Shown piece by piece: positions 476 to 10,801 of a stretch of DNA of 27,917 nt; position 1 is the first letter of the stretch, and every line of letters starts with the position of its first letter. This DNA is from a virus. The notes beneath the pieces were generated by a model. That model was given only the letters and a program-made list of their open reading frames with translations, had not been told where the DNA came from and made no database searches. The translations under genes were made by a program, and so were the position numbers. The stretch is taken from positions 1 to 27,917 of the IMG/VR virus record IMGVR_UViG_3300008055_000273; one strand, 5' to 3'.

Positions 476-1876
476 ATGCCCGACTTCTCGACGATCCTCC
501 AGACCCCGCAGGTGCGCGCGGTCGTTCAGAGCAACATCCTGGAGCGCGAGTTCCACGACGCGCTGTTCCCGCGGATGCTGTTCCGCGGAGAGGCGACGCC
601 GATCGAGTGGCCGCTCAACGTCGGCGACTCCATGATCTTCTCCGCTCCGGGCCTCATCGCCCCCGACATGCGGCCGGCGCGTCCGGGCACCGACCCGACG
701 CCCGTCACGTACTCGGTCGAGCAGTGGACGGCGCAGATCAACCAGTACCACGGTACGATCGACACCCACATGCCGTCGAGCATCGTGGCGATCATCGATC
801 TCTTCCTCCGCAACGCGCAGCAGCTCGGCCTGATGGCGGCGCAGTCGCTCAACCGCAAGGTGCGCGACGTGATGTACAACGCGGCGCTCTCCGGCTGGAC
901 GGTCGCCGACGGTGCGCAGAGCGCGACGGCGAGCCTCCGCGTGAAGCGCCTCAACGGCTTCACCCGCGCGCGCAACCCGAACGTGAGCGGCGCGTCGGTC
1001 GTGCGGTTCGATCCCGTCTCGTCGAGCAACCCGCTCGCGATCACGGTCTTCGACAACGGCGCGGCGACCTCGTTCAACGTGATCGGCTACACGCCGGACA
1101 CCCCCGGCGACGAGGTCGGTCCCGGCGTGCTCACGCTCTCGGCGTCGGTGACGAACGTGCTCGATCGCGCGTACGTCATCTCCGTCGACCGCACCTACCT
1201 CATCCGGCCGGGCGGCGGGAACAAGGTGGACGACCTGATCTCCACCGACATCCCGACGCTGGCGGACGTCCGCGAGGCGATCGCCCACTTCTGGGAGCAG
1301 AACGTCCCCGAGCACCCCGACATGCGCTTCCACGCGCACCTCGATCCGGTGTCGCAGACCAAGCTCTTCGCCGACGACGAGTTCCAGCGCCTCATGACCG
1401 CGCTGCCGGACTACTACGCCTACAAGCAGTTCGCGCTCGGCGAGATGCTGAACACGGTCTTCCTCCGCAACTCGGAGTGCCCGATCCCCTCGACCGTCAA
1501 CGGCGGCTCGACGGCGACCTTCGATCAGAGCGACCCGTTCGCGGGCGAGCTCTACACCAACGGCACCACCAGCGGCCTCAAGGTGCACCGGATCCTCTTC
1601 ACGGCGCAGGGCGGCGTGATGGAGTACTGGCAGAACCAGGACGCGCTGATCACCGAGGCCGGGCTGACCGGCGCGGTCGCCGAGCCGCGCATCTCGAACA
1701 ACGGCATCGAGATCATGTCGGACCGGATCCAGCTCATCATCCGGTCGCCGCTCAACCGCATGCAGGACATGGTCGCCGTCTCGTGGCGCTTCGTCGGCGA
1801 CTGGCCGGTCCGCACGGACGCCGCGACCGGCGACGCGAGCCGCTACAAGCGGTTCCTCACGATCGAGCACGCGTGA
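476..1876 (+). CDS. Major capsid protein
   Basis: A 466-residue protein that probably forms the head shell. Length, position after a scaffold-like gene and overall character fit an HK97-fold major capsid protein: an N-terminal region resembling an E-loop (FRGEATPIEWPLNVGDSM), a long central helix rich in Gln, Ala and Leu (LFLRNAQQLGLMAAQSLNRKV), and a C-terminal part with alternating beta segments (IEIMSDRIQLIIRSP). The general look recalls capsid proteins of the N4 gp56 type, but I cannot confirm that. The ATG follows GAGGA by 7 bases. A promoter-like motif lies upstream and a long structured non-coding stretch follows. There is no sign of truncation. Alternative: another abundant head protein. 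Confidence 0.8.
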   Translation: MPDFSTILQTPQVRAVVQSNILEREFHDALFPRMLFRGEATPIEWPLNVGDSMIFSAPGLIAPDMRPARPGTDPTPVTYSVEQWTAQINQYHGTIDTHMPSSIVAIIDLFLRNAQQLGLMAAQSLNRKVRDVMYNAALSGWTVADGAQSATASLRVKRLNGFTRARNPNVSGASVVRFDPVSSSNPLAITVFDNGAATSFNVIGYTPDTPGDEVGPGVLTLSASVTNVLDRAYVISVDRTYLIRPGGGNKVDDLISTDIPTLADVREAIAHFWEQNVPEHPDMRFHAHLDPVSQTKLFADDEFQRLMTALPDYYAYKQFALGEMLNTVFLRNSECPIPSTVNGGSTATFDQSDPFAGELYTNGTTSGLKVHRILFTAQGGVMEYWQNQDALITEAGLTGAVAEPRISNNGIEIMSDRIQLIIRSPLNRMQDMVAVSWRFVGDWPVRTDAATGDASRYKRFLTIEHA

Positions 1877-1883
1877 TGGCTCT

Positions 1884-1943
1884 GGGCCGCGCCGAGCGGC
1901 CCTCGCCACACCCGCCGTGGCGAACAGAGCACCCCCGGTGCTC
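1884..1943 (+). other. Three tandem perfect hairpins directly after the capsid gene
   Basis: Three 7-bp stems stand almost end to end, starting 8 bases after the capsid stop. The first pairs 1884-1890 with 1896-1902 (loop GCCGA), the second 1903-1909 with 1917-1923, and the third 1927-1933 with 1937-1943 (loop CCC). None is followed by a T run, so a classical intrinsic terminator is not supported. A role in protecting the 3' end of the capsid message, in processing, or as the 5' part of the structured RNA that follows is more likely. The third stem competes with a 6-bp pairing of 1925-1930 with 1955-1960. Confidence 0.6.
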
Positions 1944-2288
1944 ACTCGGCGCAAGCTCTGCTGCTCGTCCCTGGCATGGGGCCTTGCAGCGAGACGGAGG
2001 TCGCTTCGGGCTTCGGCCCGGACGAGCCAAGCCTCCGGGATACCCGTAGGGTTGATCGAACAAGGTCTTCGGACCGCGTTCAAGTTCACTAGCTCTTCGG
2101 AGCTCAGAGAACCCATGATCTTCCCGTGGTAGGTGATTCGGCATCTAGAAACTGGCATCGCTGCCTTATTTCCGATCCCGATAGCCTACTTGGCGGCACT
2201 GAGATCATCTTAGCCGATGACACTCATTGGGCTTCGGCCTGCGAGACGATCGAGAACCGGCTGCACCCAGAACGAGCCGTCGCCTCGT
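1884..2288 (+). ncRNA. Candidate large structured RNA between the capsid gene and the next gene
   Basis: No plausible gene covers this stretch, yet it is dense in complementary segments. An 8-bp helix (1963-1970 with 2020-2027) encloses a 5-bp hairpin (1988-1992 with 2001-2005) and GGGC-UUCG-GCCC (2008-2019). A helix 2049-2053/2110-2114 encloses GGTC-UUCG-GACC (2064-2075, itself framed by 2058-2061/2078-2081) and AGCTC-UUCG-GAGCT (2091-2104). Further hairpins are 2036-2046, 2154-2165, 2205-2220, GGGC-UUCG-GCCT (2229-2240) and 2272-2288; 2129-2133 can pair with 2185-2189. Four UUCG tetraloops closed by C-G pairs are a hallmark of stable RNA. It is not a tRNA, tmRNA or RNase P RNA that I recognise. 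Large ornate RNAs (GOLLD, ROOL) are known from phages, but I see no specific match. Ends and strand are inferred. Confidence 0.55.
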
Positions 2289-2364
2289 AAAACCGACGTG
2301 AAACCCGATCGCAGCACGACTCAATCAGAACGCGCCGCTTCCTTTCCTGCGAAGTGAGGACACC

Positions 2365-2751
2365 ATGGCCAACACCCACGATCCGCTCGCCAGCGCGAAG
2401 ATGACCGCCTCCGATGTCGAGGCGCCCGCGCCCGTCGCCCCCGCGCCCGCTGCGGGAGCGCCCGACGGCAAGCCGACGCGTCGATCGAAGGGTGGAGCCG
2501 AGTCCTCGGCTTTCGCGTCGAGCCCGGAGGCGACGGGGGCTGCCGCCTCTCCCGAGCCGCCTCTGCCGTCTCCGGGCGCTGCATCCGCGCCCACCGTGGT
2601 CTACGAGGTGCTGGAACCCTGCAAGTTCTTCTACGGGGCGAGCCTGGTCCGGCTGGCGAAGGGCAAGCGCATCTCGCTCGCGACGCACAGCGAAGACTTC
2701 ATGCGTGCGGTGGGCGAGGCGGGCGCCAAGCTGCGGCCCGTGGTACCCTGA
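2365..2751 (+). CDS. Small protein with disordered N-terminus, possible head decoration or completion protein
   Basis: A 128-residue protein. Roughly residues 1-75 are Ala/Pro/Ser-rich and probably unstructured. The last 50 residues look folded (VVYEVLEPCKFFYGASLVRLAKGKRISL, followed by a short helix and strand). ATG was chosen because GTGAGGA lies just upstream and the folded region needs this frame. It is the first gene after the long non-coding gap and precedes the neck genes, a place where decoration, adaptor or completion proteins occur. I do not recognise the family. Confidence 0.7.
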   Translation: MANTHDPLASAKMTASDVEAPAPVAPAPAAGAPDGKPTRRSKGGAESSAFASSPEATGAAASPEPPLPSPGAASAPTVVYEVLEPCKFFYGASLVRLAKGKRISLATHSEDFMRAVGEAGAKLRPVVP

Positions 2752-10273: not shown

Positions 10274-10801
10274 ATGGCGCGTGGTCGGAAGGTAGGATCG
10301 AGCAAGCGGAAGCCGGGCATGGAAGCGCTCTGCAACCGCTGTAAGCTCGTGCTGCCTTCTGCGTGTTTCCGCACGCGCACGGTCGGTGGGCACACATATC
10401 TGCGTTCGACATGCCGCAACTGCGAGCAATCGAGCACTGGGCAGAAGAAGGCGATCAGGAAGTGGCAGCAACAGCATCCTGACAAGATGAAGGCGGCGCG
10501 TACGAAGTTCCGAGTTGAGCAGCCTGCGCGTGCGCAGTCGCACAGCAAAAAGTGGCGTGCGCGTAAGAAGGGCGTCGAGGCGACGCTGACACACGACGAC
10601 TGGATGGAGCTCTGCTCGGCAGGTGTATGCCACTACTGTAAGCGCACGGATCTGCCCTTGACACAGGACCATGTTCTCCCGCTCTCCAGAGGCGGGCCGC
10701 ACACGAAGGACAACGTCGTCCCCGCGTGCCGACCGTGCAACTCGTCCAAGAAGGACAAGACGCCGGCCGAGTGGGAATCCTGGAAGAAGGAGATGAACTG
10801 A
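10274..10801 (+). CDS. HNH homing endonuclease (inserted)
   Basis: A 175-residue basic protein with a Lys-rich middle and two zinc-type sites. An N-terminal pair C20-x2-C23 and C47-x2-C50 resembles a treble-clef ribbon. The C-terminal HNH nuclease shows C119-HY-C122, the D132-H133 catalytic pair in DHVLPLSRGG, and ACRPCNSSK. These residues match the HNH family, which cleaves DNA in a metal-dependent way; free-standing phage members usually act as homing enzymes. Codon use is visibly less GC-rich than in its neighbours, with many A- or T-ending codons. It splits the sheath and tube genes, which are usually adjacent. The ATG follows GGAGGA. Confidence 0.9.
   Translation: MARGRKVGSSKRKPGMEALCNRCKLVLPSACFRTRTVGGHTYLRSTCRNCEQSSTGQKKAIRKWQQQHPDKMKAARTKFRVEQPARAQSHSKKWRARKKGVEATLTHDDWMELCSAGVCHYCKRTDLPLTQDHVLPLSRGGPHTKDNVVPACRPCNSSKKDKTPAEWESWKKEMN

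Follow-up and report, generated by a model that had tools for sequence, protein, structure and literature searches.

A predicted large structured RNA encoded directly behind the major capsid gene in a family of phages

The window, a virus record of 27,917 bases analysed here at full length, derives from a contractile-tailed phage (as indicated by tail sheath and baseplate matches) and raises the question of what lies between its major capsid protein gene and the next gene. An earlier note, made from the letters of this DNA alone, had described almost 490 non-coding bases at this place, some 400 of which would fold into a branched set of short helices. Both descriptions are borne out: the gap measures 488 nt (capsid stop at 1876, next ATG at 2365), and the 405 nt from 1884 to 2288 have a folding energy of -184 kcal/mol (z = -4.29), a value reached by none of 100 shuffled sequences. 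The entire gap has a z-score of -3.4, compared with -0.8 for a piece of the capsid gene of equal length, and GC content drops from about 0.70 to 0.53 at the gap. The capsid protein itself shares 25-29% amino acid identity with annotated capsid proteins of Streptomyces phage Kromp and Komagataeibacter phages phiKX1/2. From the comparison of relatives, the gap is predicted to encode a large structured RNA in the sense of the capsid gene, belonging to a family outside Rfam.

Relatives of the capsid locus and distribution of the gap

Relatives were gathered by capsid-protein searches, which yielded 5 and then 38 viral loci (given L numbers below), together with three distant loci from bacterial genomes. 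The capsid family is seen in about 50 phage contigs, and about thirty distinct relatives carry the structured RNA; the three distant capsid relatives from the genome scan all lack it. The length of the gap between the capsid gene and the next gene is bimodal, with 75-178 nt in about a dozen relatives and 404-735 nt in most, and structured gaps span about 380-680 nt in most contigs of the family. Fold z-scores of the non-redundant long gaps against shuffles lie mostly between -3 and -9.7, compared with 0 to -3.5 for capsid-gene controls, the exceptions being L002 (-1.2 to -2.1) and the 266-nt gap of L034 (-1.1). In the dozen or so relatives with short gaps, the slot holds a single terminator-like hairpin, often with a U-tract. 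On a quickly built capsid tree, many branches of which are weak, the distribution of the RNA takes four changes to explain; the RNA is found in two of the deepest in-group branches (L047 and the L046 group), and the outgroup is without it. As far as such a tree can be read, this pattern fits one gain and about three losses.

Free-standing HNH endonuclease genes are found in or beside the capsid gap in L016, L024, L037 and L051. The HNH gene coexists with the RNA in the gap of L051 and substitutes for it in L037, whose 735-nt gap is taken up by the HNH gene rather than by an RNA. The window also has a free-standing HNH endonuclease gene, located at 10274-10801 and flanked by the tail sheath gene and the tail gene that comes next.

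Conserved hairpin, 3′ domain and variable 5′ half

Side-by-side reading of the long gaps identifies an invariant hairpin in the canonical RNA, of the form GCAAACCC-stem-loop-Y-GGAACCGC, with the unpaired bases AAACC/GGAACC invariant in 27/27 aligned sequences. In these 27 sequences 89.2% of cells are paired, compared with about 36% when slid, and the covariation score is 0.508 versus 0.121 for shuffles, with 0/500 shuffles reaching it. Motif scans covered 2.9 million viral contigs. The first, which used a subset of the hairpin pattern, returned 48 stretches, all but one of them (47/48) in the capsid-connector interval; a capsid or connector gene adjoins the motif in 45 of the 46 new loci and in the known L015 and L036, and only L065 lies elsewhere. 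The second scan, which allowed another base after GCAAACCC, returned 32 stretches. Four of these (L096, L099, L104 and L114) have a complete inner stem and sit behind a capsid gene; in the remaining 28 the inner stem has 0-3 pairs and a capsid gene is lacking. As the scan pattern left the outer stem unconstrained, that stem provides an unbiased test: across 34 distinct hairpins it forms 4.5 of 6 pairs, versus 2.4 for swapped partners. A weak match elsewhere in the L037 phage to the covariance model of the canonical GCAAACCC...GGAACCGC hairpin (R1) was dismissed as chance, there being no conserved hairpin at that position.

The 3′ domain is enclosed by a closing helix (P_z), the 5′ strand of which begins about 11 nt past the motif hairpin, while its 3′ strand usually ends 1-4 nt before a short pyrimidine/U-rich tract (2-7 U) ahead of the ribosome-binding site of the next gene. 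Stacked directly on P_z is a helix of about 10-16 bp in most members (P_y), which encloses a further helix and an H-type pseudoknot of the typical form CCC-nACGGYC-GGG-n3-8-GRCCG. In 18 diverged members the domain, with P_y and the U-rich tract as its limits, measures 94-104 nt. Plain MAFFT misaligned the helices, and an anchored, N-padded alignment, biased towards the chosen helices, was used in its place. In 16 sequences, double changes occur in 17/17 tested pairs, 92.5% of cells are paired, and covariation is 0.699 versus 0.209 for shuffles (0/500 as high); the pseudoknot pairs are formed in 98% of cases family-wide, with double changes. Because this alignment leans towards helices picked by eye and score, reliance was placed on partner-swap and slid controls. 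Own partners outscore swapped ones for P_y (25.7 versus 14.3, sd 0.8), the pseudoknot (14.8 versus 11.1, sd 0.43) and P_z (15.4 versus 13.0, sd 0.41). A covariance model of the pseudoknot domain (R2) identifies the domain as the best match in each of seven members outside its training set (L062, L049, L081, L005, L045, L053 and L070), and the top match in RNA-less loci, at 17.6 bits, overlaps only the weakest of these seven. The word CCTGGGG is also enriched in the 3′ parts (8/28 versus 1.0 expected), often just 5′ of P_y or within it.

The 5′ half of the RNA is more variable. A 5′ module in which an outer stem and an inner hairpin are combined with a (U/C)AC(G/A)CCAA-like strand is present in at least 18 members; its outer stem forms 5.9 of 6 pairs versus 2.95 when swapped, a provisional figure, the stem having been chosen by eye. 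A hairpin with the loop UCGGUCR is enriched in the gaps. The repeated use of UUCG tetraloops, which the earlier note had regarded as characteristic of selected RNA structure, proves to be family-wide, with CTTCGG found in the 5′ part of 25/32 gaps versus 5.6 expected. Loops also favour the word CTTGTG (15 sense-strand occurrences versus 2 on the opposite strand), as in the CCC-UUGU-GGG hairpins in the 5′ halves of many members.

The loops also bear on strand. Both strands of the gaps fold well, and strand-specific fold z-scores do not separate them, but the UUCG asymmetry does: the capsid-sense strand has 78 occurrences of CTTCGG, versus 3 of its reverse complement CCGAAG. Folding of both strands, and the possibility of cruciforms formed by the hairpins, could be accommodated by an element acting as DNA, such as a packaging, replication or recombination site. 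Such an element is nevertheless very hard to reconcile with this asymmetry of an RNA-specific C-UUCG-G loop and with helix interiors that contain more G-U than A-C (19 versus 10), and is given almost no weight. No reading frame in the gaps of the family is conserved beyond what DNA similarity explains. A decayed gene or mobile-element remnant with accidental hairpins, which the HNH genes in or beside four of the gaps might suggest, would have to produce compensatory changes across deeply diverged phages, a largely vertical distribution, this lack of a conserved frame and the absence of copies elsewhere other than chance matches; the covariation already refutes this reading, and scarcely any probability remains for it. 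What the comparison establishes is synteny, covariation, the sense strand, locus specificity and the absence of coding.

The copy in the window

The window gap is homologous to that of L002, a carrier of the canonical motif with an insertion, over three collinear blastn blocks (best E=1e-12). Covariation, by which the earlier note had proposed to judge the structure, is present: of the 98 consensus pairs, 20 show double compensation when the window is compared with L002, and family counts exceed those of all 500 shuffles on the main measures. The position of the gap, between the capsid family and the small gene/connector (1877-2364), fits the capsid-linked family. R1 has no match in the window; it scores L002 at 34 bits, but L002 is among the model's own 27 sequences. 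The elements of the 3′ domain occur in the window in the correct order and spacing, and R2 finds neither the window nor L002. A hand-written pseudoknot descriptor was abandoned because it matched too freely in GC-rich DNA, where it ranked the true window site 210/500, and membership of the window for this reason rests on homology to L002 rather than on the descriptor. Judged by alignment, the window copy is a diverged member by descent rather than a typical one, tied to the family through its sister L002. The canonical motif is also absent from L004, L013/L014 and L021. The gap at L004:3766-4323 surpasses all others in fold excess (z -8 to -9.7), has none of the canonical motifs and is possibly a different structural variant.

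The features of the window copy are listed in Table 1. All four UUCG hairpins reported previously are present where they had been placed (2008-2019, 2064-2075, 2091-2104 and 2229-2240), and two of the helices proposed around them have to be redrawn. An 8-bp helix 1963-1970/2020-2027 is possible on paper; the pairings that the closest homologue, L002, backs at this place through compensatory changes are 1956-1964/1986-1993 and 1995-2001/2031-2037. The consensus fold of the window and L002 favours 2049-2058/2116-2125, the equivalent of which in L002 is GGAGAGATC/GGTCTCTCC, over the helix 2049-2053/2110-2114. In the counterpart of the motif hairpin, the invariant inner loop (GCAAACCC...GGAACCGC) is degenerate. 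The part most conserved among relatives, the 3′ end to about 2347 with its pseudoknot, had been missed.

Table 1. Features of the structured RNA and its flanking genes in the window
Feature	Positions	Strand	Remarks
Major capsid protein gene	476..1876	+	Directly 5′ of the RNA; weak PHROG head-protein match (E=8.5e-6)
Non-coding gap holding the structured RNA	1877..2364	+	RNA body about 1884-2347; fold z -3.4 to -4.3
First hairpin after the capsid stop (GGGCCGC/GCGGCCC)	1884..1902	+	Slot of the simple terminator-like hairpin in RNA-less relatives
Two-part hairpin, 1956-1964/1986-1993 and 1967-1970/1979-1982	1956..1993	+	Window/L002 consensus fold; three doubly compensated pairs
Helix 1995-2001/2031-2037 bearing UUCG hairpin 2005-2011/2016-2022	1995..2037	+	Consensus fold; doubly compensated pairs in both helices
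Helix 2049-2058/2116-2125 around UUCG hairpins 2064-2075 and 2091-2104	2049..2125	+	Window/L002 consensus fold
Counterpart of the canonical motif hairpin	2128..2190	+	Outer stem 2128-2134/2184-2190 preserved through compensatory changes
Closing helix P_z, 5′ strand GGCGGC	2192..2197	+	Pairs with 2334-2339
Variable UUCG hairpin between P_z and P_y	2228..2241	+	Window/L002 consensus fold
Helix P_y, 5′ strand GATCGAG	2248..2254	+	Pairs with 2320-2326, one mismatch; weak in the window, assignment inferred against L002
Helix P_x, 5′ strand GCTGC	2260..2264	+	Pairs with 2311-2315; common to L002
H-type pseudoknot	2272..2298	+	ACGAG 2272-2276/CTCGT 2284-2288 and CGTCG 2278-2282/CGACG 2294-2298
Helix P_x, 3′ strand	2311..2315	+	Consensus fold with L002
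Helix P_y, 3′ strand CTCAATC	2320..2326	+	Assignment inferred
Closing helix P_z, 3′ strand GCCGCT	2334..2339	+	
Pyrimidine/U-rich tract, likely 3′ end of the RNA	2342..2347	+	Tail sequences, T-run lengths
Next gene, small protein	2365..2751	+	Disordered N-terminus, conserved C-terminal part; in nearly all relatives

Known RNA families and possible functions

No Rfam 15 model (GOLLD, ROOL, introns, tmRNA, HEARO and others) has a gathering-level match in the window or 15 relatives, and the RNA is for this reason not regarded as a member of GOLLD, ROOL, the introns or tmRNA. A permissive Rfam scan of the window gap returned nothing up to E=5, and only weak sub-threshold matches were seen, in L026 and L017. 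No tRNA was found in 26 RNA-bearing stretches, of which only the flanks were searched, and GenBank phages searched for DNA similarity yielded a single match, attributed to chance. The open-access papers searched contained no description of this RNA, although an earlier description is not excluded. ROOL, a large, highly structured RNA of phages and prophages whose function is unknown, combines pseudoknots with a framework that is conserved around variable parts (PMC12286853). The capsid-linked RNA resembles it in these structural respects; ROOL, however, is often near tRNA islands, with a solved example of 659 nt, whereas the present RNA is locked to the capsid gene. A further mark of ROOL is assembly into an RNA-only homo-oligomeric cage. 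GOLLD, the expression of which climbs during lysis (PMC12286853), is likewise large, ornate and phage-encoded, but often exceeds 800 nt and lies near tRNAs, in contrast to 400-700 nt in the head operon. The most abundant transcript of phage ICP1, an ORF-less RNA of ~800 nt between gp139 and gp140 that its authors liken to GOLLD and ROOL (PMC7567579), is a further long phage RNA without a reading frame, located at the lysis cluster rather than behind the capsid gene; its sequence was not compared. The earlier note had offered two alternatives for the gap, an unknown phage RNA in the spirit of GOLLD or ROOL or a stabiliser of the capsid message. That the RNA is under selection is supported, and the choice between the two cannot be made from sequence.

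The reading preferred here, held at a probability of about 0.5, is that the RNA arises from the 3′ end of the capsid transcript, stops transcription, shields that end, persists and binds partners; it is inferred, with no transcript data. The RNA would be transcribed as the 3′ end of a very abundant capsid message, an inference drawn because the slot otherwise holds a terminator-like hairpin and because the RNA ends in a stacked helix and a U-rich tract. The 3′ domain, with its helix stacked on the closing helix, pseudoknot cap and U-rich tract, may then stop most transcription and shield the 3′ end, and the folded body with its invariant unpaired bases could persist late in infection as a stable RNA. 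This RNA may finally bind a protein or other copies of itself. Such action in trans is the least certain step, suggested only by the size of the RNA and its invariant unpaired bases. A terminator scan found none on the RNA's strand in the window or L025, and a promoter scan found no sigma-70-like promoter. As these scans support nothing specific and the tract is short in many members, the 3′-end assignment remains a proposal, and the U-rich tract may just as well be a stretch of pyrimidines ahead of the next gene's ribosome-binding site.

Several of the same observations could also be met by a purely cis-acting 3′ untranslated region, with no separate RNA, that shields the capsid mRNA from 3′ exonucleases and dampens downstream transcription, giving an excess of capsid protein. 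The RNA is fixed behind the capsid gene and in the same sense in all members, a simple terminator-like hairpin takes its slot in relatives that lack it, and no sigma-70-like promoter is detected. Intrinsic terminator hairpins after capsid genes, however, are single structures of ~40 nt without conserved bases, compared with a multi-domain RNA of 400-700 nt; a 40-nt hairpin is enough in the RNA-less relatives, and 400-600 nt with invariant unpaired bases exceeds what protection needs. This explanation is possible but on the unlikely side.

The location between the capsid and connector genes, and a conserved pseudoknot that immediately precedes the U-rich tract and the ribosome-binding site of the following gene, would also suit a conditional attenuator or antiterminator, put-like or riboswitch-like, that governs transcriptional read-through past the capsid gene to the head genes behind it. 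The put antiterminator RNAs of phage HK022 are structured RNAs of about 65 nt with conserved unpaired bases, found in early phage operons. They share with the capsid-linked RNA a place within a phage operon and conserved unpaired bases, and differ in size and in operon, the Rfam scan being the only comparison made. Regulation of this kind appears rather improbable: no conserved alternative pairing is in evidence (none was sought), the ribosome-binding site lies outside the structure, and RNA-less relatives have an unchanged gene order with a plain hairpin.

A more far-reaching and rather improbable possibility is an obligate role in head morphogenesis, in which the RNA, made together with the capsid protein, would serve as a scaffold or structural component linked to the capsid, as a distant functional analogue of the phi29 packaging RNA, or as an RNA cage; if true, tailed-phage assembly would gain an RNA of a new kind. 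Few large ornate RNAs are known from phages, and what they do is not understood; the capsid-linked family adds one that is outside Rfam and has strong covariation. Its invariant bases point to a specific fold, and its fixed place adjoins a gene that in phages usually ranks among the most highly expressed. The relatives that have lost the RNA are natural comparisons, so that a role in capsid expression or assembly becomes testable once a host-phage pair is cultured.

In L053, a textbook intrinsic terminator (a GC hairpin followed by seven T) is found about 30-65 nt past the capsid stop, before the RNA. The RNA of that phage would therefore need read-through or a promoter of its own.
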